Virus record (IMG/VR): IMGVR_UViG_3300012954_004455
Location: 28,343 to 92,342 of that record
Length of the DNA: 64,000 bases
Direction: 5' to 3' (one strand)
Origin: a virus
Shown here: one piece after another, positions 1,015 through 52,915 of the stretch
Layout: each line of letters starts with the position of its first letter
Position numbering within the stretch: the stretch's first letter is position 1
Notes under the pieces: generated by a model
Told to the model about the DNA's origin: nothing
The model's database searches: none
What the model saw: the letters and a program-made list of their open reading frames with translations, nothing else
Program-made: the position numbers and the translations under genes

Positions 1015-2738
1015 TAGAGATAAAGACTGAGAGGGGCAGCTTGGGACTCTACCCAGATACGACAATTCAGTTTGAATTGATTAATCCTCTGTTCTCAGAT
1101 GTAGTGGGATACAATTCTTTTGTTTTCTCCCTCCAGATCCCGAATGATGGAAGGAATGTGGGTGTATTCGAGATGCCTGATGAACCCACGATTATACCGC
1201 GAAATGATACGTTGGCAGCGACCATCCTGTTTGATGGAGTAGAACTATTTGAGGCTACTATAAAAGTGGAAGATGCAAACGACCGAGTGATTAATATCGG
1301 GATTAGTGTCATGGAAGCGAAACTGGCTCAGGAGCTGGATAGAGAACTTACTGAGTTCAATTTAGGAGGAGAAATAAGCTTATCAAATCAATCGGGATAT
1401 AATGGGACAGAGGAGGTTATACAGGTCATGAATGAGGCGGCTAATGGTATGGGGGATTGGCCGTTTACATGCTTTCCATACAAAAATGTATCTCATTACC
1501 CTGAGTTGGTGCACCCCACTACTCCAACAAATTGGGAATATGAGATTATTAACCTATGGGATCAATCAGGAACTTTCTCTCAGGAGGAGCACGCTCATAG
1601 AAGTGGGATTAATGTGGAGAGATACACCGTATCGCCACAGTTCTTTTTATTGTACATCATAAGGGAGCTCCTGCAGGAATTAGGATATGAATTGGTTCCA
1701 TCTGCTTGGACGGAGGATCCAGAGATTCAAAGTGTGGTGGTGTGGAATAACCGAACCCTACAGGATGAACAATATTCTGACAATCTTGGGTCTATGGTGA
1801 TGATATACATGTACCATTACCGAACGGTGATAAAGGCGGCAGAGCATGTGCCTCCGATGAAGGCAAAGGAGTTCTTGAGTTCCATTTGCAAGGTATTCAA
1901 CCTATCCCTTTTCTGTGAAGGGGCTCAAATATCCATTAGAAATAGGGAGGAAGTTGTTCTGGAGGCAGAAGAATTGGATTGGAGGGATAAAGTCACACAT
2001 ATATCGGTAGTGGCAGACTCAAGCGAGAACAAAGATGGGTTTGAGTTCAAGATCGATCGCGACGAAAACGATGAATTGAGCAAACCAGAACTTGACAAAA
2101 GGCCAACCACAGTCGGAGAGGTAAACTTCCCTCATGAGCTACCATTATCTTCAACTATGGATTCTTATTTGGTGAGGGAGACTAATGAAATATATTCGTA
2201 TGGAGACCAAGGATGGGAGCCTGTTACCTGGGATCAATTCACCATGGGAGAAGGCGAGCTCAAGGTGACAACAAAGGCTTCAACGACACGAATGAAAGTG
2301 TTGCCTTGGGGAGGGGGAGACTGGAGGATTCCAGCAGTAGATATGCCTGGTAGCTCGGAAGGTATTGCGGGTATGCAACATCCGTTTGGGTTGCGACTGT
2401 TATTCTATCGAGGAATATATGCGGATATTCCTAATGGAGTGGCATACCCACACGCTGATGCATCACCAGTTAGAGGGATTTATAATTATTCTCTCCATTG
2501 GGAAGGGGAGAGAGGCTTATATAAGTCCTGGTGGGAAGGCTGGCACAACGTACAAAGTAAACAGATCATTCGAGGGAGCGTCCGAATTAATATTATGGAT
2601 ATTAAAACGCCCCCTTGGGAGAAGAAAGTTCGTATGAGAACCTCAATTGGCGAAATTGGGGTGTTTGTGAAAAGGTTGAATGTTTCTCTTTCGATGAGTG
2701 GCATACTCCCTGCCGAGGGAGAGTTTATGAGCCTGTGA
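1011..2738 (+). CDS. Large tail/baseplate-like structural protein
   Basis: A 575-residue protein, full-length homologue of 40038-41786. The N-terminus (MIEIKTERGSL against MLEIRTPKGSL) fixes the start at ATG 1011, preceded by the Shine-Dalgarno sequence AAGGAGG at 997-1003; an in-frame GTG at 1005 is not needed. It overlaps the end of the previous gene by 4 bases. The protein is rich in predicted beta structure with many aromatic residues and has no transmembrane segment or recognisable enzyme motif. Position immediately before the tape-measure cluster and conservation in both prophages support a virion tail component such as a baseplate or tail-tip protein (inference). Confidence 0.75.
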   Translation: MIEIKTERGSLGLYPDTTIQFELINPLFSDVVGYNSFVFSLQIPNDGRNVGVFEMPDEPTIIPRNDTLAATILFDGVELFEATIKVEDANDRVINIGISVMEAKLAQELDRELTEFNLGGEISLSNQSGYNGTEEVIQVMNEAANGMGDWPFTCFPYKNVSHYPELVHPTTPTNWEYEIINLWDQSGTFSQEEHAHRSGINVERYTVSPQFFLLYIIRELLQELGYELVPSAWTEDPEIQSVVVWNNRTLQDEQYSDNLGSMVMIYMYHYRTVIKAAEHVPPMKAKEFLSSICKVFNLSLFCEGAQISIRNREEVVLEAEELDWRDKVTHISVVADSSENKDGFEFKIDRDENDELSKPELDKRPTTVGEVNFPHELPLSSTMDSYLVRETNEIYSYGDQGWEPVTWDQFTMGEGELKVTTKASTTRMKVLPWGGGDWRIPAVDMPGSSEGIAGMQHPFGLRLLFYRGIYADIPNGVAYPHADASPVRGIYNYSLHWEGERGLYKSWWEGWHNVQSKQIIRGSVRINIMDIKTPPWEKKVRMRTSIGEIGVFVKRLNVSLSMSGILPAEGEFMSL

Positions 2739-2739
2739 T

Positions 2740-3288
2740 ATGGATGAAAAACTTAGAGAGGAGTTCCTAAGAGAAACTATCCTAAAATGGATTGGGCATG
2801 CTAGGAAGGAGCTCATAAAACGAGTAAAGAAAAAGGAAAAACATCTGCCAGAAGGTTTGGCTGATGATATATGGTTTGACCTATCTGTTGGGGTGGTCAC
2901 CAAAATAACCCTCTCTCTGGGAAGCAAAGGGGACGCGGCGAGGATGATAGACATCAAAAAGCTTAAATGGGAGAAAGTTCCCCATAAAGCAATCTCGCTA
3001 TGGGTCACCAAACATTATTCTAGACTCAGAAAAAGAAAGGTGCCAGGGTATAAAAATCAGCCTAAAAAATTAACAAAGGAAAAGCAAATCGAACGGATAG
3101 CAGCAGCTATCGCGTTTCGCAAAAGGTCAAGACCCGCACACTCCTCAAAAGGACGGTGGCTATACGCTAAGCGCATATATCAATTGATAAGTGTGCTTGA
3201 AGATATGCTGCGAAGAGAACAACATGATTGGCTCAAGAAAAAACTAAAGAATGAATTTGAGAACTTGCCCACAGTCGAGTTCTTCTAG
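2740..3288 (+). CDS. Small basic protein upstream of tape measure
   Basis: 182 residues, very lysine/arginine-rich, with long helical stretches and a conserved core IWFDLSVGV...GDAARMIDIKKLKW that matches INFDIQVAG...AGRFVDIKVKEW in the homologue at 41783-42307. The C-terminal helix (LEDMLRREQHDWLKKKLKNEF) also aligns. Start ATG 2740 follows the upstream stop by one base. It sits between the baseplate-like gene and the tape measure in both elements, suggesting a tail assembly or completion factor, but the fold is not recognised and function is unassigned. Confidence 0.7.
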   Translation: MDEKLREEFLRETILKWIGHARKELIKRVKKKEKHLPEGLADDIWFDLSVGVVTKITLSLGSKGDAARMIDIKKLKWEKVPHKAISLWVTKHYSRLRKRKVPGYKNQPKKLTKEKQIERIAAAIAFRKRSRPAHSSKGRWLYAKRIYQLISVLEDMLRREQHDWLKKKLKNEFENLPTVEFF

Positions 3289-3304
3289 TAGCCTAATGTC
3301 CTAT

Positions 3305-3339
3305 CCACATCAGCGAGAAATTTATCTCTTGCTGATATG
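3305..3339 (+). promoter_or_regulatory. Hairpin ending at the tape-measure start codon
   Basis: ATCAGC (3309-3314) plus GAGA (3315-3318) pair with TCTC (3325-3328) plus GCTGAT (3331-3336), with a TT bulge. The right arm ends on the base before ATG 3337. Such a stem would mask the initiation region of the tape-measure mRNA; regulatory meaning is inferred. Confidence 0.4.
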
Positions 3340-6300
3340 GCGAGAAACTCAGACATAGCTCACTTAAGTGTTTTCGTGGACGGTACTCCCGTAACGAACA
3401 CGATTAAGAGCCTAGCGAAGGACTTTCGTAAGCTTAAACGGGAGGTTGAATCAACCAGTCAATCAAACGCAGATTTCCAAGAGAAGGCCAAAGAATACGG
3501 TCGCGTCCGAAATGAGTTGGTTGGACTTAGAAAAGAACTCAAACAGATAGCCTGGGAAGTTCAAGGTATCCCTGAAGACTCCATCGAGGGACTCACGAAA
3601 AGAGCGTCTCAATTGGAAGAACAGATGGGGAAGCTCTCTACGAGTTCTCAAGAGTACAAGCAAAAACTTCTGGAATATGATGAGGTAAAAAAGACGTTGG
3701 AGAGGGTCAAAGCAGAGGCTAAGGCTCTCACTGAGGTCGTTGAATCGGTTCCAAAGGACTCGATTCAAGGCATGAAAAACAGGTTGGAGGAATTGAATGA
3801 GCAACTCATCAAGGCCAAAAGGGGGGGAGAGAAGTTTGTAGCGTTATCGGCAGCCTTTAAGACTCTGTCTCAAGAAATCAAGGAAACGGAAAAGGAGGCA
3901 AAAAAGCTGGAGGAGGCCATAGAAAGCTTTCCTAAAGGAAGTCTTAAGGCAGCGGAGTCGGAGGTGAAAGAACTACGAGAAGAACTATCCAGACTTCCAG
4001 AGGAAAGTGAGGAGTTTAATTCGAAGGTACAAGAACTCAGAAATGCCGAAAAACGTTTTGATAACGTCAAGAATAAGGTGAAAGGGGTCACTGAAGCCTT
4101 CAAGACCCAGAAGGGATCAATAAAGGATTTGGAACGGGAATTCAACAAATTGAATAACGAAATCAGATCAATTAACCCAGAAACCCAAAAATTCAATGAG
4201 AAGCTGAAGGAACTGGCAAAGACTGAAAAAAGCCTCGACAGAGCGAGACGCTCTATGAACAGATTCAAAGCCTCTCAAAAGCAAAGTATTTCCATTACTC
4301 AAAGACTAGGGAAATTTATGAAAGCCAATTGGATAGCCTTAGTGGCAGTCATTGGTATGGCTATAAAGAAAGGTCTTGAATATGCCTGGCGACTCAGCCA
4401 GGAAATGGAAGAGCTCAGGGGAAAGATCAATATCCTCACGGGAGAAGTTGGGGATAGTTTAAATAAGGTCTCGGCTAGGGTCAAAGCACTTAGCAATATC
4501 TTCGAAATTTCGATAAAAGAGATATTAGAAGCGGGACAGTCTCTAAGCACAGCTTTTGGCAAAAAAATGTATGAATCCTTAGATAGCCTTGCTAAAGGAT
4601 TAATCTTGGTAGGCGACAAAGCTGGAGAACTCTTAGATCAAATCTACGAATATAGCTCCCGACTTGAAGAAGCTGGATTCATAGCATCCCAAGCTGTTGC
4701 CCTAATAGTCAATTCGATTAACATGGGGACGTTCAATGATTCCCTTGTTGATTCAGTGAAAGAACTCGATTTGCGTTTGGAACAACTGAGTGAATCCGCA
4801 AAAAATCTACTCAACTTAAAGTTTGGCAAAGAACTGACTGAACAGATATTGGCAAATTCGGGGGATACAGTTAAAGCACTCCAACTGATATCGGGAGGAA
4901 TCGCGGAACTCCTAGAAAATGGAGAAGATGTGAATGAGTTAGTTTCTGTTCTTTTTGGAGAGCCAGGCGAAAACCTTACCGCTGGGAACATTGCAAGGAT
5001 AAAGGACATGAACCTGAACCTTGATGAACTTGTGGGAACAGGTAATACATATATACAACTCAAGCAAAGGGAACTCATACTTGAGGAAAAAGCGGCTATA
5101 GCAAGTGCCTCTTTATCCCAAGAAATAGAGGGGCTTTCGGCATGGTTTAGAAGGGCAGGGAAAAACATATCGAGGTTTTTCGTCGGAGGGCTTGCCGCCA
5201 CTCTGAAATTCTTCAATTATCTTCCTGGCCGTATTAAAATATTCGGGAGCTTAATGTCTCATGCTGCTGCAAAGTTTGCGAATGCTTGGATAAAGGTCAT
5301 CAATAGAATAAGGAAATCCTTAGGGTTCGATCCAGTAAAAGAGTTTGAGGCCAGTGGGGAGAATATCCGTAACGCACGAAAGGCTTTACAAGAAAAGATT
5401 GCTAAGGATAAAAGGGATTATGAGGCATCACAAGCCGTAGAAAACCTTAAAAACATCAAGCAATACAAAGCTGCTGAAAGACTTGAGAGGGTGAAACAGG
5501 AAGTTGCAACTCAAAAGGCAGAAAGAAAAACATACAAAGAAGAGGCCGATAAGATGTCCAAGCTCAGAGCAGAATCTCAAGCAGAGATTGAGAGGTTGCA
5601 AATAGAGCTTATGGAGGACGGACTTGAGAAAAAAATAACTCTCCTTCGGTTCGAGACTCGCAAAAAAATTGAAGCTATCAAAGGAGGTCAAGCAGAAATT
5701 GAGCAATTAACCCTCTTATACGAAAAGAGGCTTGCCAAACAGATAAAAGCATTAAGAAAAGAAGAAGAAGTAGAGAACGCAGCAGCTCGTGCGAAGGATG
5801 CAAGCGAAGCCAAAGAATCACGAGATAAAGAGTACGCCCAGAGACTGGAGAGCCTAAAAAGGAGTAGAGACGAGGAAGCCCTTATAGACACACAAACCGC
5901 TGTAGAAAAAATACGTAATGGCGAAGATAGTGTAGTTGCAGAAGAGGTACTCAACCAACAGCTTCTTGACGGCCAAATAGATTTCTTGGAAGCGAAGAAA
6001 GAGCTTCAACAGGAATTCGGGATGGATTCTCTGGAAACACAGACCCAAATCGAGCAAATGAAACTCGATGAGGCAAGAAGGAGGGCTGAAGAAGAACTCG
6101 AAATCGAAAGGGAAAAAGAGGAAAAGAAGGAACAAGCAAAGCAACAAGCCCTTACAAAGACCAGGCAACTGGGACAGGCCATGACAGCCTTTTGGAAGGC
6201 TAAGTTGGATGAAGAACTAGATCTTCTCGATCAACAAAAAGAGGCTGAACTTGAAAAAGCGGGGGACAACGAGGCTGCCAGAGCTGAAATAGAGGCAAAG

Positions 6301-6918
6301 TTCCAAGAGAAAAAGGAAGAGGCTCAGAAAAAAGCAGCAAAAAAACAGAAAGGGGTATCCATAGCCAATACCCTAATAAACACGGCAGAATCTATAGTGA
6401 AGACAGGGGCTACCTTAGGATATCCCCTAGCCATTCCGTTTCAGGTCATGGCTGGGGCGATTGGAGCTCTCCAGATCGCTACTATAAGGAAACAAAAATT
6501 TGCAGACGGGGGCTTCACAGGTGAAGCACCTTGGGGAGCCGTTCCTGATGAAACGGGAGAGATTCCAGTCGGTCTAGTCCATAGACACGAATATATTGTA
6601 CCAAGGAGAGTCGTTGAAGATCCTGCTTCAATACCTCTCATAAAGTCTCTAGAACGTATGAGAAGAGGCCAAAAATTCGCGGATGGGGGCATGGCATTGG
6701 ACTCCCCTACCCTCTCCCATTCAAATATAGACGTAAACCCGTCTGACGATTCACTTGCTGCAGTAGGGCAGAAGATGGACAAAATCCATCATACCCTACA
6801 ACGGATGAGGGACGATATTCAAAACCAACGTTTGGTCTCCATAATCGGAGAAAAAGAAGCAAATGTAATTGATAAAGCACAAAAAGAACTCTACAGGAGA
6901 AGAGGGACTGCACTATGA
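3337..6918 (+). CDS. Tail tape measure protein
   Basis: 1193 residues. Residues 20-315 are five tandem 57-60-residue coiled-coil repeats, each opening with (P)xDSI/GSI-type and ending near a proline, rich in Lys/Glu. A hydrophobic segment follows at about 327-345 (NWIALVAVIGMAIKKG). The middle (about 700-1000) is further charged coiled coil. The C-terminus has the FADGG...GEIPVGLVHRHEYIVPRRVV pattern seen in Bacteroidota tape measures and shared with 42341-45352. The family sets tail length and lies in the tail lumen before DNA ejection. The element B protein has a single N-terminal repeat unit, so A has expanded by internal duplication. Confidence 0.9.
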   Translation: MARNSDIAHLSVFVDGTPVTNTIKSLAKDFRKLKREVESTSQSNADFQEKAKEYGRVRNELVGLRKELKQIAWEVQGIPEDSIEGLTKRASQLEEQMGKLSTSSQEYKQKLLEYDEVKKTLERVKAEAKALTEVVESVPKDSIQGMKNRLEELNEQLIKAKRGGEKFVALSAAFKTLSQEIKETEKEAKKLEEAIESFPKGSLKAAESEVKELREELSRLPEESEEFNSKVQELRNAEKRFDNVKNKVKGVTEAFKTQKGSIKDLEREFNKLNNEIRSINPETQKFNEKLKELAKTEKSLDRARRSMNRFKASQKQSISITQRLGKFMKANWIALVAVIGMAIKKGLEYAWRLSQEMEELRGKINILTGEVGDSLNKVSARVKALSNIFEISIKEILEAGQSLSTAFGKKMYESLDSLAKGLILVGDKAGELLDQIYEYSSRLEEAGFIASQAVALIVNSINMGTFNDSLVDSVKELDLRLEQLSESAKNLLNLKFGKELTEQILANSGDTVKALQLISGGIAELLENGEDVNELVSVLFGEPGENLTAGNIARIKDMNLNLDELVGTGNTYIQLKQRELILEEKAAIASASLSQEIEGLSAWFRRAGKNISRFFVGGLAATLKFFNYLPGRIKIFGSLMSHAAAKFANAWIKVINRIRKSLGFDPVKEFEASGENIRNARKALQEKIAKDKRDYEASQAVENLKNIKQYKAAERLERVKQEVATQKAERKTYKEEADKMSKLRAESQAEIERLQIELMEDGLEKKITLLRFETRKKIEAIKGGQAEIEQLTLLYEKRLAKQIKALRKEEEVENAAARAKDASEAKESRDKEYAQRLESLKRSRDEEALIDTQTAVEKIRNGEDSVVAEEVLNQQLLDGQIDFLEAKKELQQEFGMDSLETQTQIEQMKLDEARRRAEEELEIEREKEEKKEQAKQQALTKTRQLGQAMTAFWKAKLDEELDLLDQQKEAELEKAGDNEAARAEIEAKFQEKKEEAQKKAAKKQKGVSIANTLINTAESIVKTGATLGYPLAIPFQVMAGAIGALQIATIRKQKFADGGFTGEAPWGAVPDETGEIPVGLVHRHEYIVPRRVVEDPASIPLIKSLERMRRGQKFADGGMALDSPTLSHSNIDVNPSDDSLAAVGQKMDKIHHTLQRMRDDIQNQRLVSIIGEKEANVIDKAQKELYRRRGTAL

Positions 6919-7736
6919 CAATCGCTGAATGGGAACGTAATAAAACATGGGAAGCGACGGAAAACCTCATTAAAAAATATGGGAGTAAGAGGATGAGGCT
7001 CTTACTACGAGTGACCAGTAAAAAAAATCTTAGCAATCGACGGATTCTGGAGAAACATCTTCTTCAGATTAAGAAAAAACATCAAACAAACCCAAGGTCA
7101 AACCCAGGGTCAAACCCAGGGTCAAACCCAAGGTCAAACCCAGGGTCAAACCCAAGGTCAAACCCAAGGTCAAACCCAAGGTCAAACCCAAGGTCAAACC
7201 CAAGGTCAAACCCAGAGTCAAACCCGTATAGTGGGCTTTCTTTCAGGTTTCGAGTTAAATCGGGAGTACCCGATATACAAAAGATCGACCTAAGGATTGT
7301 AGAATTGGCAATAGAGAGAGATTTCTGCATCAACTGTGTAGAAATCATATATAAGAACGGGCGATATTCTGAAGAACAAATCAAGAGGAATAGAAGAGCC
7401 GTAATAATCTTGAACAGGATTAATAAAGAACTCTCGGATCTTAAATCCAGAAGAGAAATTCTAGAGAACTCGATTATGGCAGAAGAGCCGCTGGCAGATG
7501 ACCTAGTTATATCCTTCGCCAAAAGAAAATACTCAACAAAGGATATAAATGCGATGGATAAATCGGAATTAAAGGATCTTAAAGCGCGTATTTCTACACG
7601 CGCCTCTCAATATAGATCGAAAGCTAAACTGCAAGAAAGCACCACACGCCTCAATACAATTCTAAAAATCAAAACTTTAGAAGGTTATCTAGATCTAATC
7701 CAAGCGGAGGAAAGAAAAAGGAAGATTAAGAAATGA
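6915..7736 (+). CDS. Protein with NPxS minisatellite, between tape measure and terminase
   Basis: 273 residues; ATG overlaps the tape-measure stop (ATGA). Residues 59-106 are twelve tandem four-residue units NPRS or NPGS (last two NPES, NPYS) encoded by a 12-bp DNA repeat at 7089-7232. The remainder is a basic, helical protein; its C-terminal part (about 195-265) aligns with the C-terminus of 45349-46044, which lacks the repeat. The gene precedes the small terminase in both elements with overlapping stop/start codons. Function is unknown; a tail or DNA-packaging accessory role is possible from position. Confidence 0.65.
   Translation: MTIAEWERNKTWEATENLIKKYGSKRMRLLLRVTSKKNLSNRRILEKHLLQIKKKHQTNPRSNPGSNPGSNPRSNPGSNPRSNPRSNPRSNPRSNPRSNPESNPYSGLSFRFRVKSGVPDIQKIDLRIVELAIERDFCINCVEIIYKNGRYSEEQIKRNRRAVIILNRINKELSDLKSRREILENSIMAEEPLADDLVISFAKRKYSTKDINAMDKSELKDLKARISTRASQYRSKAKLQESTTRLNTILKIKTLEGYLDLIQAEERKRKIKK
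7089..7232 (+). repeat. 12-bp in-frame tandem repeat (12 units)
   Basis: Twelve contiguous copies of a 12-bp unit of the form AACCCAAGGTCA, varying mainly at one A/G position that switches Arg (AGG) and Gly (GGG) codons. Unit length is a multiple of three, so slippage would change protein length by four residues without a frameshift. Confidence 0.95.
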
Positions 7737-13787: not shown

Positions 13788-14350
13788 TTTTAATGTGTTT
13801 AATATTCTGGTGTAATATAACAAAATTTTTTAGGGCTGGTCAAGTGGCTTGTTTTATATACATGACAAAAATATTTTCTGGTGTAAAGTAAAAAATAGAC
13901 AAAAAACACTGAGCGGAAGCGGAAATATGAAAACCCCTCTATATCTATTTGAAAAAACCACTATTTTACAAATAGAGGGTCTTAAGATGTTGATAGTCAT
14001 AGAGTTAGGCCATTTGCTTTTTTTTTCAAAACCACTATTTTTTACAAATAAATGGAGGCAAAAAACAAATTTGCTTTTTGATTTGTGTTTTTTTGTAAAA
14101 AATAGTGGTTTCTAGAAAAAAAACAAATGGGTTAAAGCACTACTAATCAAACTGTTATATGCCTCTATTTGTAAAATAGTGGTTTTTTCAAATAGAGGTA
14201 CCTATACATATGTATTTTTATTTCCGCTCAGAACGGTTTTGTGAGATGGGGTTTTGGTGGTGTAGATGGGTGGGGAAATAAGGTAGATGTAAGCCTTTAT
14301 ACGATAAGGGGTGATATTATTTGGGTGTAATTTTGTATCATTGGGGTAAT
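13788..14350. other. Gene-free interval with concentric inverted repeats
   Basis: No convincing gene is present. The interval contains the 323-bp palindrome described separately, an AT-rich flank on each side, and about 120 bp between the palindrome and the next start codon that should carry the promoter of the 14351 gene. Both flanking genes point away from it. Confidence 0.7.
13909..14231. repeat. 323-bp concentric interrupted palindrome
   Basis: Three nested inverted-repeat pairs share a centre at 14070: CTGAGCGGAA 13909-13918 with TTCCGCTCAG 14222-14231; a perfect 34-bp pair 13945-13978 with 14162-14195; and an inner pair of AACCACTATTTTTTACAAA 14029-14047 with its complement 14092-14110, extended by CCATTTG 14010-14016 and CAAATGG 14124-14130. 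The core CCACTATTTT..ACAAAT occurs four times, two in each orientation. The 34-bp arms are themselves able to fold, since CCTCTATTTG pairs with CAAATAGAGG within the right arm (14162-14198). Confidence 0.95.
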
Positions 14351-23828: not shown

Positions 23829-24111
23829 TACACATGTATTTAATGGTGCAAATGGCCTACCAGAAATCTGTTTGTATAGATGCGAATTAAGAGGCTAACT
23901 ATCAGGAACTAACTCCTCTTAAGGTCTTTTATTCTCCATAGGGAGAGACTTCAGTGGAATATACTGTTCCACGAACCCCCCTTAAACCCTTATGAGCCTC
24001 AAGTGCTTACGGGTAGATATCTCATTTGGGTGCAAGGAGAGTGCAGAAACACTTGCATTCCTTCCATCCTATGGAAGGGATTTTCAATCCCTGCAGGTTC
24101 ATCTTAATCAG
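23829..24111. other. Junction between elements A and B: hairpin-dense intergenic
   Basis: No gene. Five short perfect inverted repeats in about 205 bp: TTAAGAGG 23887-23894 with CCTCTTAA 23915-23922; TCTCC/GGAGA at 23933-23946; GTGGAA 23954-23959 with TTCCAC 23967-23972; CTTCCAT 24061-24067 with ATGGAAG 24071-24077; GGGATT 24077-24082 with AATCCC 24086-24091. The integrase promoter and the attachment site joining the two prophages are expected here; no tRNA gene was recognised. Confidence 0.6.
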
Positions 24112-24507
24112 TTAATCCTCCTTGCGGAGTTTGGCTTCCAATCTTAAAAGCAAGTCCGCTATCTCAGGATTAATGTTTTCCCAAGGAACGGTCTCCTCTT
24201 CTGTCTTGTCCATCATCAAAAGAAACTCTAAGGCCTCTTTTGTCTGTTTTTCACTTCTGTACATCTGGAGTATTTCCCCCTCGGAAAACACAAGCTCTTT
24301 ATTGATTGGGAAAAAATCAGTAGGCGGGATATCAAACCGATTCAAGAGCAACCAAATCAGATCAGATTTGAAGTCTTTATAGCTGAACCATCTCCGTACT
24401 ACTTCAGGCCTTTTATCTATCTCTCTAGCGAAAGCGGCGGCTTTGACTCCCTTCTTCTTCAATAAGTTCTTGAGGAAGTCTCCCATATGTATTGGATTCT
24501 CTGGCAT
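24112..24507 (-). CDS. Repressor-like HTH protein 1
   Basis: 131 residues. Residues 1-60 form a Cro/CI-type helix-turn-helix (MPENPIHMGDFLKNLLKKK...AAFAREIDKRPEVVRRWF), followed by PPTDFFPINKELVFSEGEILQMYRSEKQ and the C-terminal VPWENINPEIADLLLRLEAKL common to all three neighbouring paralogues. First residues repeat closely in the next two genes. Probably a lysogeny regulator; which of the three is the main repressor is not visible. Confidence 0.65.
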   Translation of the reverse strand: MPENPIHMGDFLKNLLKKKGVKAAAFAREIDKRPEVVRRWFSYKDFKSDLIWLLLNRFDIPPTDFFPINKELVFSEGEILQMYRSEKQTKEALEFLLMMDKTEEETVPWENINPEIADLLLRLEAKLRKED

Positions 24508-24544
24508 ATAAGTGATATGTTTTTTGTAAAGCAGAATGTTTTTG

Positions 24545-24934
24545 TCATTGACGAAGTTTCCCCTCCAGTTTCAGAAGGAGAACTCCTATTTCGGGATCTA
24601 TATTTTCCCAAGGCACGGTACCAGGATTATCTTTACTAAAGGTTACCAGAAACTGGAGAGCTTCTTTTATAAGTTTTTTTTCTCGGCACATCTGTAGTAT
24701 TTCACCTTCAGAGAAAACGAGATCCTTGTTTATCGGAAACAAAGCTGTTGGAGGAACATCAAATCGTTCCATAATCATCCATACAACATCAGATTTTAAG
24801 TTTTTATATCCCAACCAGCGTCTAACGACCTCTCGTTTTCGTCCTATTCGCCTTGCGAATTCTGCTATGCTTATTTTATTTTCTTTGAGGAGACTTTTAA
24901 GATAGCCTCCGATATGTACTGGGTTTTCTGGCAT
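24545..24934 (-). CDS. Repressor-like HTH protein 2
   Basis: 129 residues, paralogue of the genes on both sides: same N-terminal MPENP(I/V)H(M/I)G, same helix-turn-helix register (SIAEFARRIGRKREVVRRWLGYKNLKSD), same C-terminal VPWENIDPEIGVLLLKLEGKLRQ, the last 12 residues being identical to repressor 3. Its start codon lies 72 bases from the 24-bp operator at 25007-25030, which probably controls it. Part of a tandem triplication. Confidence 0.7.
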   Translation of the reverse strand: MPENPVHIGGYLKSLLKENKISIAEFARRIGRKREVVRRWLGYKNLKSDVVWMIMERFDVPPTALFPINKDLVFSEGEILQMCREKKLIKEALQFLVTFSKDNPGTVPWENIDPEIGVLLLKLEGKLRQ

Positions 24935-24980
24935 AAATGATACTTTTTTGAGGTCTGGTCACTAAATAACCAGAATTTTG

Positions 24981-25072
24981 TTGTCAATAATTAAAATATT
25001 GCTATATTTGTATCCGTAAGCAGATACAAACTTTGCGCTTGCATCTTGTTTTACACAAGGCTAAAGCCTTGT
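24981..25072 (+). promoter_or_regulatory. Operator-promoter 1 with palindrome
   Basis: TTG 24981-24983, 19 bases, then TATATTTG 25003-25010 (promoter). The 24-bp operator TTTGTATC-N8-GATACAAA at 25007-25030 overlaps the -7 box. A perfect inverted repeat ACAAGGCT (25055-25062) with AGCCTTGT (25065-25072) follows. Its transcript would run toward the 3' end of repressor 3. Confidence 0.65.
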
Positions 25073-25141
25073 AACGTTCTTTCACAAGTAATCGAGATTC
25101 AGGAATTTGTAGAACCTATCTCTAATAATTAGAGGAATAAG

Positions 25142-25534
25142 TTATTGACGAAGTTTCCCTTCCAGTTTCAGAAGGAGAGCTCCAATTTCAGGATTGATAT
25201 GCTCCCAAGGCACGGTACTAGGGTCATCTTTGGAGAGGGTTATAAGAAACTGGAGAGCTTCCTTAATGAGCCTCTGGTTTTTGTATAATTCTGTGATTTG
25301 CTCTTCAGTATGAACCTTGTCTTCATTGATTGGGAAAAAGTCTGTAGGAGGTAACTCAAAGAAAGATAATATTGTCCAAATCGCATCAACAGAGAGATAT
25401 TGGTATGAAACCCAGCGGTTTACTACCCCCTCAGATCTGCCAATTTTCTTTGCAAATGCTTTTTGTGTCAGTTTTCTCGCTTTCAGGAGCCTCCTAAGCT
25501 CATTCCCCATATGTATAGGATTCTTCTCAAACAT
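25142..25534 (-). CDS. Repressor-like HTH protein 3
   Basis: 130 residues; ATG 25534 is chosen over TTG 25540 because FEKNPIHMG then matches the paralogues' NPIHMG. Helix-turn-helix at about 15-45 (LTQKAFAKKIGRSEGVVNRWVSYQ), the ELPPTDFFPINEDKVH segment, and a C-terminus IGALLLKLEGKLRQ. The most divergent of the three in the HTH but nearly identical to number 2 in the last third, suggesting duplication plus gene conversion at the C-termini. Confidence 0.7.
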   Translation of the reverse strand: MFEKNPIHMGNELRRLLKARKLTQKAFAKKIGRSEGVVNRWVSYQYLSVDAIWTILSFFELPPTDFFPINEDKVHTEEQITELYKNQRLIKEALQFLITLSKDDPSTVPWEHINPEIGALLLKLEGKLRQ

Positions 25535-25573
25535 GATCAAGTAGGTGTTTTAGCCCAAAAACATACAGATCTG

Positions 25574-28892: not shown

Positions 28893-31800
28893 ATGCCAAG
28901 AATATCAAGACGTTCTATTGATGCCATATACTCTGCTGACAACCTCGTTAACATTATAGGGACGGTTGTAAAACTAAAAAACAGCGGAGCTACTCTGTCA
29001 GGGAAATCCCCCTTTAAAAGCGAGAGAACAGCTTCTTTCATGTTAAACCCTCGTAAAAAGGTTTGGAAATGTTTCTCGACTGGAATTGGTGGCTCAAACT
29101 CAATCCAATTTCTTATGGAGTTGGAGGGATTGAGCTATCCAGAAGCAATAAAAAAAGCTGCAGGAATTCTTGGCATAACGATCGAATACGAAGGGGGGGA
29201 TTCTGGCTCAAGCCAAAACCTAGAATACAAGCGAAAGAAAGAACTAGCCGATCGTTTAGAGCAAACAGCCATCTACTTCGGAGAAAGCCTGAAAGAAGGA
29301 TCTCCTGCATCTAAATTCCTCTTAAAAGCGTTCTCAGAGCGTCTTAATGACGAAGTAATAGAGGATTTCCAGATAGGATTCGCGAAAAAAGGATTCCTGC
29401 AGGAATTGAAAGCCGACGGAACCATCAGCGCAACGAAAGGAACAGGCATCCTTAAGGCTTTTGAGAATAGACTGATATTTCCCATACACAACAGTTGGGG
29501 GCAAGTAGTGGGGTTTGGCGCACGCATCATACCCAACGATCCAAAGCCCACACCAGGCAAATACATAAACTCTCCCGAAACCATCCTCTATAAAAAAAAG
29601 GAAAGCCTATATAACCTGAACAGGGCTAGGAGAACGATAATCAAAGAAGATAACACTTTCCTGGTCGAAGGCTATTTCGATGTTATTGCCATGCACAAAG
29701 CAGGGATACATAATGTAGCCGCTCCTTGTGGAACAGCATTAACAGAAAAGCAGATAGGGCTATTAAAACCACTCGGAAGAAGCATAACCATATGCTTCGA
29801 CGGGGATAAGGAAGGCCAAAAGGCGACAGCAAGAGCTCTACTTCTCTGCTTAGAAGCTGGCTTGATGCCTAAAGTTGTAGCCTTAGAAGGCCAAGATCCT
29901 GAAGATTTCCTCTCCGACAAGGAACAAGAAAAAAAACAGGAAGCCATCAACAACCTAACCGTTTCTTGGTTGGAATGGCTATGGGGGTTCATAAAGAAAA
30001 GTTCAAATACTTGGCAGACTCAAGATCGTATTGAGGCTGTCCAGAAAATTCAAAAGGAATATCTAGCTAAAATCGAAAACCAGCTCCTACGAGAAGAACT
30101 CCTCCTCGATCTCGAAAAAGCATCGGGAATCCCCATCGAATCGCTCCAAGGAGAAGACTTCTGGGAAAAGAGCACCTGGTTGAACTTCATCGCTCTTTGT
30201 GATCGATTGAAAATCAGCAGGGAAAACGAAGATTTCGCACCAGGGGAAGAAAACACCATTTCTATATACAGAAGGAATCTGAAAGGAAAGATTACCCATA
30301 GTAGAAAGACATCCGACCAAGTAGTCAGTTATGGGGTATACCAGCCCCAAAAGCTAAGAAAAGCCAAAACACTAGGACAAATCCTTTTCCCTGGTCAATA
30401 CAGGGAGGATTCGCTTTTTATGGTCGTAGACGAGGTGCTTGCTTACGTTCTAACCGAATTGGGAGTTCCCTCGATAGGCATATCTCACATAGCTGGCTGG
30501 AAAACGGCACCCGACGGCAAGAAACTTCATCCCTCTCTAAAGGCGGCTCTAGCAGGATACAGAGAACTTATCTTTCTAGTCCCTTCACAACTTTGGGAGA
30601 TCGCCGAAGGGGAAGAAGATAGCAGCTCTGTAATGAGTGAATCGGAAGAAGGGATCTTCGGCCTTATCACGGCACTCCAAGAAAGCGAACTTGAAGTAAA
30701 TTTGAAATTGCTGTTCCCAAGAAAACCCACAGCAAGAACACAATCGCGATTCGTAGAAAAGAAACTCCTGGAATGGTATCAAGCAGTTACAGATCCCAAG
30801 GGGCGGCTGATTCGCAACCTGGACCTCAGTAGAGATCAGAAATCCCAAGTTTTCACATTGAGAACCGTGGGCTATAACAGCCAAAAGAGTATTCGTGACT
30901 GGCTAGGGATAGATTCTCCAGACGATTGGAGAGAAATCCATCAACTGACATCCGATTTTGTGTTCCGTGGAACACAGTACAAGATATCTCCTACAACGGG
31001 GGATATCAGTATCGCGAAAACGAAAAACGAAATATCTTCTCTTTGGGAGGAAAATGGCATGTACCATATAAAGAAAGGGGCTCGTAATTCGGAATCAATA
31101 AGCAACTTCACTTTCATAGATTGGCGACTCAAAATAACGGATGGAGTCGATCAGAAAGGGATGTTTCTGTTTCGGCGTTTTGATCGTCGGGATAAGTTCA
31201 GAATACTCATATCTTCCGAAGATTGGTTAAGCCCCAAGAGCTTAATCAAAAAGTTCCAAGCATACCCAAAAGCAAACCTCTCTTTCAAAGGTAGCGGCCA
31301 AGATCTCCTAGCTGTATATCACCTCTTGACTAAGAAAAACCCAAAGGAAGCAGAGCAAGTAAATAAAGCAGGTTGGGATAGTTCGCGGAATATATGGATT
31401 TGGGGTGGCGGTGGCTATACAACCCTGGAGGGGAAGTTCCATCCTGTAGACTCGGAAGGCACAGCCGACTGGGAAGGAACCAAGTTGTTTTGGCCCGGAG
31501 TCAGCAAACTGATCCCGAAAAAGGAACGAGAGAAGTACAAAGCCATGTCGATTATGGAACATCGAGGGAAGGCAGATGTAAACTTCTCCAGTTGGGTCGA
31601 ACGGTTTAGCTCCGTATATGAAAAGGGACTAACTGGAATCATCTTTCTGCTAGGAACCATAAACGTACACATAATAGAAAAGAAGCTCCGTAAATACCCT
31701 GTCTTGCTTCTTACCGCTCCAAACAAGTTTGGGAAATCGGAATGGGTAGAAAGTCTAGGGGCAATTGCTCCCGTTATGACGCTCAACCATGGATCTGGAG

Positions 31801-32852
31801 CAACTAACGCATCTACTCGGGAGCATCTCTCTGCGTACAATAGCTGGTTTACTGTTTATAATGAGCTGACAGCTAAGAAAGCAGAGTTCATTCAGAGCTT
31901 AATAAAGGCTGCCTATGATAGGCAAGCTCCTGCCAAGATGGATGCTAAAACGAGTTTTAGCACCATCGACTACCAGAAACCAACTGGTAGCATGATTGGG
32001 ATCGCTCAAGATCGAGAACTCCTCTTCAAACGAGAAGAGGTTGGAGAGAGAGGGATACATGTCGAGCTTACCATCGCTCCAAAAGACAGATCAAGAGAAG
32101 AGAAAAGAAACTACCATTCCCTGAAAGCCCTAGAAGATAAAGGCTTAGGTCATCTAATGGGAGAACTTCTCCCTCATACCAGGAATGTGGAACCCAATTT
32201 TAGAGAAAGATTCCTGGAGGTAAAAGAGTGTTTGTTGGATTTAGCTCCAGTCGGTATTAATGAACGGATTCTCGAATCATGGGCAATGATGCTCACTCCC
32301 ACTTTTGCCATGATTGAATCTGGATTGGACTTCCCTTACACAAGCGAAGAATTATACCAATATGCGATAGCTGAAACGGCTGCGCAATCGGGAGCCATGG
32401 GTAAAGGAGGGATCGCGGAGATATTCTTCGACTGGCTATCATTGGCCACAAACCGAAGTGGCGTGAATGTCATAGGAGCCGTAGGAGCATATGTAGATAC
32501 CACTAAGTTCCCTCAATACAAAGATGGCACCCTACACATCTCCCTGAAGAATGTTTACCCCCTATTTCGGGAGTACCTAAGAAAGGTATTCCCCGAAATC
32601 CAAAATGTGAGCAAAAACGATCTCCAACGCAGGAAGCTCCGAGCGCATCCTGCGTTCCTGGAGAAAGAAAGTCGTGAAAATGGGGTCTGCATAGGCTATA
32701 AAACTGAAATTTCAACAAATGGACGAATCATCGTCAAAAATGGCCAACGAGGCCCCATGAAGGTGACTGGGAGAGCCCTAGTCTTTGATCTCTCCAAAAT
32801 CGACGCGGCGATCAATATCCAATATGCCTTCATAAACGATGACGAAGCATAA
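28893..32852 (+). CDS. Primase-helicase (TOPRIM primase fused to SF3/D5-like helicase)
   Basis: 1319 residues. Residues 1-105 match the DnaG zinc-binding domain in order (SGATLSGKSPFKSERTASF...WKCFSTGIGGSNSIQFLM) but three of the four zinc ligands are replaced. A DnaG catalytic core follows; TOPRIM motifs are EGYFD at about 258 and FDGDKEGQKA at about 302. The C-terminal half carries a P-loop (APNKFGKS, about 940-948) and a second motif VYNEL (about 987) where an acidic Walker B pair is expected, plus an Arg region, as in D5/SF3-type helicases. It should prime and unwind phage DNA. Downstream genes are closely spaced. Confidence 0.85.
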   Translation: MPRISRRSIDAIYSADNLVNIIGTVVKLKNSGATLSGKSPFKSERTASFMLNPRKKVWKCFSTGIGGSNSIQFLMELEGLSYPEAIKKAAGILGITIEYEGGDSGSSQNLEYKRKKELADRLEQTAIYFGESLKEGSPASKFLLKAFSERLNDEVIEDFQIGFAKKGFLQELKADGTISATKGTGILKAFENRLIFPIHNSWGQVVGFGARIIPNDPKPTPGKYINSPETILYKKKESLYNLNRARRTIIKEDNTFLVEGYFDVIAMHKAGIHNVAAPCGTALTEKQIGLLKPLGRSITICFDGDKEGQKATARALLLCLEAGLMPKVVALEGQDPEDFLSDKEQEKKQEAINNLTVSWLEWLWGFIKKSSNTWQTQDRIEAVQKIQKEYLAKIENQLLREELLLDLEKASGIPIESLQGEDFWEKSTWLNFIALCDRLKISRENEDFAPGEENTISIYRRNLKGKITHSRKTSDQVVSYGVYQPQKLRKAKTLGQILFPGQYREDSLFMVVDEVLAYVLTELGVPSIGISHIAGWKTAPDGKKLHPSLKAALAGYRELIFLVPSQLWEIAEGEEDSSSVMSESEEGIFGLITALQESELEVNLKLLFPRKPTARTQSRFVEKKLLEWYQAVTDPKGRLIRNLDLSRDQKSQVFTLRTVGYNSQKSIRDWLGIDSPDDWREIHQLTSDFVFRGTQYKISPTTGDISIAKTKNEISSLWEENGMYHIKKGARNSESISNFTFIDWRLKITDGVDQKGMFLFRRFDRRDKFRILISSEDWLSPKSLIKKFQAYPKANLSFKGSGQDLLAVYHLLTKKNPKEAEQVNKAGWDSSRNIWIWGGGGYTTLEGKFHPVDSEGTADWEGTKLFWPGVSKLIPKKEREKYKAMSIMEHRGKADVNFSSWVERFSSVYEKGLTGIIFLLGTINVHIIEKKLRKYPVLLLTAPNKFGKSEWVESLGAIAPVMTLNHGSGATNASTREHLSAYNSWFTVYNELTAKKAEFIQSLIKAAYDRQAPAKMDAKTSFSTIDYQKPTGSMIGIAQDRELLFKREEVGERGIHVELTIAPKDRSREEKRNYHSLKALEDKGLGHLMGELLPHTRNVEPNFRERFLEVKECLLDLAPVGINERILESWAMMLTPTFAMIESGLDFPYTSEELYQYAIAETAAQSGAMGKGGIAEIFFDWLSLATNRSGVNVIGAVGAYVDTTKFPQYKDGTLHISLKNVYPLFREYLRKVFPEIQNVSKNDLQRRKLRAHPAFLEKESRENGVCIGYKTEISTNGRIIVKNGQRGPMKVTGRALVFDLSKIDAAINIQYAFINDDEA

Positions 32853-51193: not shown

Positions 51194-51231
51194 AGCCTGT
51201 AGATCTGAAAGGATTTGCAGGCTTTTTTTAT
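51194..51231 (+). terminator. Rho-independent terminator
   Basis: AGCCTG (51194-51199) pairs with CAGGCT (51218-51223) with additional pairs GATC/GGAT inside, followed by TTTTTTT. Closes the portal operon. Confidence 0.75.
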
Positions 51232-51373
51232 GCCCAATAGGAGCGAAAAACGGAGCTCTACCCTAGCCTACGGAATACATACGTATTTATACGTAATTAC
51301 TTCAAAACAAGTACGGATTTAGCCTCGTATATATGCGCGCATTTAGGGTTCACGCTTCGCCTATTTTTTCGAA

Positions 51374-51739
51374 AAAAAGGGGGGTGATTTTTTTTTTTGT
51401 TAATTTGTTAAGTGAGTTTATATATTATATAGTTAAGTTATTGATATATAAGTAGTTATATAAATCTCATTTTGTTAAAATATGGCCTTATTTTGTTAAA
51501 AAACGGGGTATTTTTGTTAAAAAACAGCCGATTTTGTTAAAATATAGATAGATTTGTTGTGGAAACGTCTAGTTCTTTTAGTGCACTAATAGTACGACTT
51601 TCGGGTTGTTAGCTTTTTCGAAGATGCGGCATATTTTAACAATTTGTTAAAATTCGGGGGCACTGAAAATCAACAACTTATGCTCTAACAAGCCGACTGG
51701 TATGACAAATTAACAAAAAAAAAAATCACCCCCCCTTTT
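51374..51739. repeat. 35-bp inverted repeats flanking 21-bp-phased iterons
   Basis: Left arm 51374-51408 and right arm 51705-51739 are reverse complements with a single one-base difference in a G run (A5G6TGAT11GTTAATTTGT type). Between them, TTTTGTTAAAA occurs at 51470, 51491, 51512 and 51532 (steps 21, 21, 20 bases), and a palindromic double copy ATTTTAACAATTTGTTAAAA is at 51633-51652. An inverted copy TTTTAACAAAA is at 51993-52003 outside the arms. Confidence 0.95.
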
Positions 51740-52008
51740 TGGTAAAAAAAAGGGGAAATGCGATCCTAAGACGCGAGTGGTGTTAAGACACTTATTCCTC
51801 TATATATCAGCCTTTTAGGCGGGTTTTTGCTAAAAACGCCTATTTACTTACTAAATTCGTATAATATTGAGGCAAAAACGGTTTTTTAGGCAATTTTAGG
51901 CTTAATTGACAGATAATCAGGAACTTATGGCATTATGAGCGAGGCGACTGATTAAAGACATTGATATAGTACGGTTTCTCGTAGATCTTGGATTTTAACA
52001 AAATCGCC

Positions 52009-52027
52009 AACTGTTTGCCAAACAGTT
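52009..52027. promoter_or_regulatory. Perfect 19-bp palindrome (operator candidate)
   Basis: AACTGTTTG, C, CAAACAGTT: nine-base arms without mismatch, beside the inverted TTTTAACAAAA copy. Placed 121 bases upstream of the start at 52148. Confidence 0.6.
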
Positions 52028-52099
52028 CAAACATGAGATTTCGTATTTTTGCAATAATACTACGAGTTTCGATTGATTTTTAGGCTAAAATTGGCTGAT

Positions 52100-52147: not shown

Positions 52148-52915
52148 ATGAGCGAAAATAACTACAACTTACCCCCAACAATAACGCCCCCCAAAATCGT
52201 CAAAGTACCCGTAACGGCTTATGTATATAAGTGGTTACGATCGAAGTTTGGCCCCTTGAATAGCTACGACCTTGATTACAGAGGAAATGGAGAACTCAAG
52301 AAGGCTCTGAGAGGTTTACCCCTCAACTGGACAATCGTTACGGAAATCAACCCTCTCCCCTATTATCATGTCAATCTGGTGCTGGGTAGGAATGAAGAGC
52401 TGATATCAAACTACGAGGAGCTAAAGCCCTTCATTACGGCTGGAGCCTTGTTTCAGCATGAATTCTTTTCGGCTTTCCTAGCCTATAAGGATGGACAGGA
52501 ACAACTAGCGAAGCAGCTAGGACTAACTAAGAGTCAATGGAACACCCGTAAGGCTATACAGAGCTTTTGCCAGACGCATAATATAGGAGCTGATGAGTAT
52601 GATAGGGAGAGTTTTGAGCGTCATATGCGAAGAAAAAAACATGATATTTCTCATTTCGTGTCGCACGTCACACAGAAATGGGAGTTCCAAAACGATGGGA
52701 ACCTTCTGTATGTGCCTGCAAGGGTATACATAGGCAAAAAACCTTATATAGGATTCCAATGTTTTTCACGAAGTAGAGGAACGATGAGGCGGGTTCAAGG
52801 CTGGGTACCTAAGACTCTCCTGAACCAACCAGGCGCGATCGATTGGAAAATGTGGGCAACCCTGATGGTCGAAAGCATAAACATATTGTTAAGAAAGGGT
52901 TGCAGTATTGCATAA
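52148..52915 (+). CDS. Conserved protein of the inverted-repeat locus (homologue of 14351-15070)
   Basis: 255 residues. The KVPVTAYVYKWLR N-terminus, QLAKQLGLTKSQWNTRKAIQSFCQTHNI (possible HTH, about 120-147), and C-terminal LNQPGAIDWKMWATLMVESIN align with A. No known family. Adjacent to the 993-bp repeat region and followed in this element by three small genes before the membrane protein. Confidence 0.65.
   Translation: MSENNYNLPPTITPPKIVKVPVTAYVYKWLRSKFGPLNSYDLDYRGNGELKKALRGLPLNWTIVTEINPLPYYHVNLVLGRNEELISNYEELKPFITAGALFQHEFFSAFLAYKDGQEQLAKQLGLTKSQWNTRKAIQSFCQTHNIGADEYDRESFERHMRRKKHDISHFVSHVTQKWEFQNDGNLLYVPARVYIGKKPYIGFQCFSRSRGTMRRVQGWVPKTLLNQPGAIDWKMWATLMVESINILLRKGCSIA

Follow-up and report, generated by a model that had tools for sequence, protein, structure and literature searches.

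A probable PICI-like iteron origin in a complete Bacteroidota prophage, distant from its primase-helicase gene

The prophage and its intergenic array

The DNA analysed, called the window throughout, is 64 kb long and comprises bases 28343-92342 of a 92,342-base IMG/VR record (the contig). Over its initial ~12 kb the contig resembles Bacteroidota chromosome, and the fumarase encoded there shares no more than 74% identity with that of any species compared; the virus is read as integrated in a Bacteroidota bacterium. Three long paralogous host proteins are encoded in tandem (L004, 89-10595), each with an HELTHTIQQG motif near the N-terminus. Two prophages follow the host-like stretch in tandem, and a 115-base repeat of prophage 2 lies directly beside the integrase end of prophage 1. 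Within prophage 1, the open reading frame at window 6915-7736 contains 11 copies of a 12-base repeat (7097-7217) encoding SNPR/SNPG repeats. The sister contig IMGVR_UViG_3300012928_000009 extends 252 bases beyond the window end, and this extension contains a second copy of the 115 bases at window 23954-24068. Prophage 2 thus has a direct repeat at either end, as expected for att sites, which it probably represents, and the prophage start is placed near window 23954.

Prophage 2 (window ~23954-64000) is a temperate phage of ~40 kb. Its genes include repressor-like genes, a primase-helicase, a tape measure, a large terminase, a DUF6712 connector, a head protease and an integrase; portal and capsid genes are predicted from their position and from homologues in common with the relatives. 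With its own terminase, head protease and tape measure, prophage 2 does not depend on helper-supplied capsid or packaging genes as a satellite would. A row of three short, mutually similar repressor-like genes is present at its left end (24112-25540, minus strand).

The array sits in a 993-bp intergenic gap of this prophage (Table 1). A preliminary description had reported inverted arms, four copies of TTTTGTTAAAA at steps of 21, 21 and 20 and a further two copies forming a palindrome; all of these were confirmed and their coordinates recovered. The outer iterons and the single copy at 51993-52004 are additions to that description. The arms can be drawn as 35 nt with 77% complementarity (51364-51398 / 51716-51750) or as the longer pair in Table 1, of 71 nt with 80%. 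The AT-richest 40 bp of the region (51444-51483) is 87.5% AT, and nine of the ten TTTGTTAA octamers in the window fall within 51396-52002.

Table 1. Coordinates of the array, its associated genes and the array of prophage 1 (window positions)
Feature	Position	Strand	Remarks
Whole candidate origin	51338-51775	.	bounded by imperfect inverted arms, 51338-51408 / 51705-51775
Left outer iteron pair TTTGTTAATTTGTTAA	51396-51411	+	8-bp step; copies at 51396 and 51404
AT-rich spacer 1	51412-51469	.	candidate melting region, from sequence
IHF-consensus match TATCAATAACTTA	51434-51446	-	
Central row, four direct copies of TTTTGTTAAAA	51470-51480, 51491-51501, 51512-51522, 51532-51542	+	steps 21, 21, 20
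Degenerate fifth copy ATTTGTTG	51552-51559		continues the step of the central row
Inverted iteron pair (palindromic double copy) TTTTAACAATTTGTTAAAA	51634-51652	.	
IHF-consensus match AATCAACAACTTA	51668-51680	+	inverted relative to the first
Right outer iterons ACAAATTAACAAA	51705-51717	-	one full (51710) and one partial; 8-bp step
Lone extra iteron TTTTAACAAAAT	51993-52004	-	outside the arms
52148 protein gene	52148-52915	+	255 aa; family widespread in these phages
Primase-helicase gene	28893-32852	+	1319 aa; primase domain of DnaG type, with a helicase of a Cch/SaPI-Rep-like family at the C-terminus; proposed initiator
Array of prophage 1	13909-14231	.	syntenic, different word; two inverted IHF-consensus matches, 13983-13995 (-) and 14145-14157 (+)

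The array is far from chance. On both strands of the intergenic region TTTTGTTAAAA occurs five times (mean of 0.02 and largest count of 1 in 300 shuffles), and the commonest 8-mer nine times (mean 2.5, largest 5, 300 shuffles). Folding as single-stranded DNA gave z = -8.2. The sister contig is identical at the array and therefore provides no independent test of it. A DNA similarity search with the intergenic region gave no match in the phage collection, and the Rfam search returned one weak, sub-threshold match. The exact 21-bp two-copy pattern was found in IMG/VR, beyond this phage, only as isolated two-copy matches, of which two lie in DNA that is rich in repeats and probably coding.

Ahead of the array, at 51195-51229, a hairpin and T run resembling a terminator were identified by eye; the array therefore probably lies between transcription units. 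Upstream of 52148, a perfect palindrome CTGTTTGCCAAACAG (52012-52026) is located just before TATTTTTGC (52044-52052), which resembles a Bacteroides -7 box; the two are a possible operator and promoter.

Arrays of the same layout in related phages

The same layout was observed in 22 phages and prophages, including this one. It is present in prophage 1, in G166, G991, G893, G1223 and G1314, in five Porphyromonas prophages, in Flavobacterium laban6-1, 1H, FPSV-D15 and 23T, in Cellulophaga Ingeline and Bacteroides BT-TP2, and in a 'Microcystis' phage. For MT837390, MT835875 and Leef_1 the array was predicted first and then found in all three. The Porphyromonas group, and the close relatives 1H, 23T and FPSV-D15, are non-independent among the 22. 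No published description of the array or layout was found in the literature searched.

The first informative relative was G166, found through a 52148 homologue of 32% identity. Further prophages were collected with the 52148-family profile, G893 and BT-TP2 through the terminase, and the Flavobacterium, Cellulophaga, Porphyromonas and 'Microcystis' phages through helicase homologues in the phage collection. The 'Microcystis' phage, Mea-Yong924-1 (L158, MZ447863), has a replication and head module of Bacteroidota type, and its host label may be wrong. No array of the shared plan was found in L136, L143, L144, L146, L147, L149, L151 and L152; these are stretches of 12-17 kb in which no helicase of the A3 family described below was demonstrated. 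MT838395 and MT839714 were left uncalled, as each sequence stops ~250 bp or less from its helicase gene.

The shared plan runs from an outer iteron cluster (8-9-bp steps) through an AT-rich spacer, often with an IHF-like site, to a central row with 10-11 or 20-21-bp steps, and from there through an inverted pair and a second spacer, again often with an IHF-like site, to another outer cluster. The inverted boundary consists of the two outer clusters in opposite orientation. In G166, 12 copies of GTGGTGCA occupy the gap between the DUF6712 gene and the 52148 homologue, with inverted, outward-facing clusters and a core of 97.5% AT; the outer-cluster orientation of the window array is unlike that of most relatives. 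The words differ among relatives and include TGTAGGA, TGTTGGAC, GTTGAGA, GTGGTGCAA and GGGAAAC, among others. As boundaries and words were picked from a k-mer scan, the repeat counts are descriptive.

These relatives bear on the preliminary proposal of helically phased, iteron-like sites. Their arrays of the same layout support iteron-like sites, and the comparison of repeat spacing, which could have refuted that reading, did not do so, as the layout is kept under changing words. The phasing holds for the central row, in the relatives as well, where steps are near 10-11 and 20-21 bp; the 8-9-bp steps of the outer clusters confine strict two-turn phasing to that row.

The spacers are enriched in IHF-like sites. 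Among 15 arrays, nine contained 12 exact IHF-consensus sites in total (shuffles: mean 0.46, largest 3), five had one-mismatch sites only and the 'Microcystis' array had none. The density was 2.8 per kb inside the arrays and 0.12 per kb outside them in the same sequences (~24 times). Four of the 11 exact sites in the window lie inside its two arrays, two in each and inverted. The test was prompted by inspection of the spacers and is hence partly post hoc; the Leef_1 array, with two inverted IHF-consensus sites, supports it independently.

Candidate binding proteins and other readings of the array

In the primase proteins the C-terminal halves make up one family, A3, and the sole strong match of this family in the PDB is Cch, the SCCmec helicase (5dgk, E 5e-12). 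It is through this family profile that a Rep-type helicase is recognised in the element; taken alone, the helicase half of the 28893-32852 protein gave no Pfam match, is only ~22% identical to its best relatives and has a non-canonical Walker A motif (APNKFGKS). No more than ~0.5 kb separates the start of the array from the primase/helicase gene that precedes it in G991 (~0.3 kb), G893, G1223, G1314, laban6-1, 1H, FPSV-D15, 23T and BT-TP2. It lies immediately 3' of the proposed initiator gene in G893, G1223, laban6-1 and 1H, and not in this prophage (18.5 kb away) or in prophage 1 (~16 kb). The array had been described as a late-region feature, which is accurate for the location of this copy and not for its nature, given its position after the primase-helicase gene in many relatives.

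In G1314 the helicase is different, a DUF3987 protein with a weak C-terminal HTH-like match, and is directly followed by an array of the same plan; the plan may thus outlast the helicase. At L145 a DUF3987 helicase (2673-4436) has a CCTGACC array directly after it, with the helicase family swapped and the origin plan kept. Arrays are present in BT-TP2 and Leef_1, where an A3-family helicase was not demonstrated. In MT835875 and MT837390, whose words differ, the helicases are 82% identical in the AAA core and 52% in the C-terminus, a contrast that agrees with specificity in the C-terminus without proving it.

The preliminary description had named the 52148 product as the binder. Its C-terminal ~70 residues (184-254) resemble the N-terminal, arm-binding-like domain of several Bacteroidota tyrosine integrases (hhalign 97.4%), and the protein therefore probably binds DNA. 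It had no match in Pfam, PHROGs, phage tblastn or GTDB peptide patterns, its relatives came only through genome searches, and AlphaFold gave pLDDT values of 40 and 49, with an uninformative fold search. The array could accordingly be read as an operator or enhancer bound by this protein and controlling a transcription unit that starts at 52148, as a 52148-family gene adjoins the array here and in prophage 1, G166, the Porphyromonas prophages, BT-TP2, MT837390 and MT835875. The association is not general, however. In laban6-1, 1H and Ingeline the array is early, nearer the primase and ~4-10 kb from the 52148-family gene; the G893 locus has an array and no detected family member; and the G1279, G1294, G1152, G1120 and G1256 loci have a family member and no qualifying array in the 15-17 kb examined. 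The separation in three phages and the absence of a detected member at another array make the protein an unlikely general binder, and we consider the operator reading improbable. That the 52148 protein is a late-gene regulator is a reasonable guess.

Arrays of phased copies are also typical of centromeres, and a partition site, or a packaging site with arrayed protein-binding sites, was considered. No ParA/ParM-type gene was present among the window proteins scanned, the phage carries an integrase, and the recurrent location is beside a replication gene rather than the terminase, so that this reading appears very improbable. A non-coding stretch bounded by inverted arms might also be a MITE or another insertion with terminal inverted repeats. 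A mobile insert predicts likeness in sequence rather than in layout, however, and the syntenic arrays of the relatives show the reverse. Multiple conserved copies would also be expected, and the array is present as a single copy in the 92-kb contig, its own arms aside; the insertion reading was rejected as having almost no likelihood.

Interpretation as a replication origin

We consider 51338-51775 to be an iteron origin of PICI-like type that belongs to a complete phage and is displaced from the phage's own primase-helicase gene, with a probability of roughly 0.8. The evidence comprises the anatomy of the array, a layout conserved with changing words, the IHF-like enrichment, a position near the primase-helicase gene in many of the relatives and the homology of the helicase family to Cch. 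Several observations weigh against it: the 18.5 kb between array and gene in this phage, the low identity and unusual Walker A motif of its helicase, the partly post hoc nature of the IHF test, the deviating orientation of the outer clusters, and the arrays of G1314, BT-TP2 and Leef_1, of which the first goes with a DUF3987 helicase and the other two with no demonstrated A3 member. The GC-skew minimum lay no further from the array than ~8% of the genome length in five of nine phages, and 20% away in this one; as support for an origin it is weak overall and nil for this phage.

Binding, bending, melting and replication at the array are what we infer from these features. The C-terminal domain of the primase-helicase would bind the iterons, and an IHF/HU-type host protein would bend both AT-rich spacers at the paired IHF-like sites, joining the outer clusters and the central row. 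The helicase would then load where the AT-rich DNA has melted, and synthesis would be primed by the DnaG-type domain fused to it.

Several known systems have parts of this organisation. In satellite phage P4 (ori/crr, compared by description) primase and helicase are fused in the alpha protein, which likewise binds short iterons surrounding AT-rich DNA; P4 differs in having two separate sites and in being a satellite. Iteron plasmid and lambda O-type origins share phased direct repeats and an AT-rich melting region, with IHF sites in some plasmid origins. The array described here differs from these in being intergenic with inverted outer clusters, and no plasmid Rep or O-type initiator was found among the proteins scanned.

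The closest parallels are the PICI/SaPI origins (pri-rep-ori), in which short iterons in opposite-facing sets surround AT-rich DNA and the genes encode a primase and a Rep-type helicase, fused here, with the A3 family matching Cch, a relative of SaPIbov1 Rep (PMC6092414, PMC7581432). The C-terminal domain of SaPI Rep recognises iterons downstream of its gene (PMC7581432). In contrast to PICIs, to which a 2018 paper considered such an organisation unique, the replicon here is a complete phage with terminase and predicted portal and capsid genes, and the array, at a distance of 18.5 kb from the helicase gene, has a separate central row and paired IHF-like sites in its two AT-rich spacers. At the putative SCCmec cch2-ccrC origin, too, direct repeats lie immediately after a helicase gene and are bound by the C-terminal domain of its product (PMC7581432); Cch2, however, belongs to another helicase family, there are only three 5-nt iterons, and outer clusters are not described.

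Replication origins of Bacteroidota phages are apparently undescribed in the literature searched. These phages are common in the gut, mouth and sea. It is an even question whether temperate Bacteroidota phages of several families have one origin plan, in which an iteron origin with two spacers is bent at a pair of inverted IHF/HU-type sites and is opened by a fusion of primase and Cch/SaPI-Rep-like helicase. Under this proposal the word would change so readily that adjoining prophages in one chromosome differ, and the origin would thus act as a replication-specificity code, able to move from the helicase gene. Neighbouring prophages with different words would offer a natural test of origin specificity, and the layout provides a simple sequence rule for locating such origins. 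If many ordinary temperate phages carry this layout, the replication modules of satellites and phages would be connected, with consequences for the question of where the PICI replicon originated.
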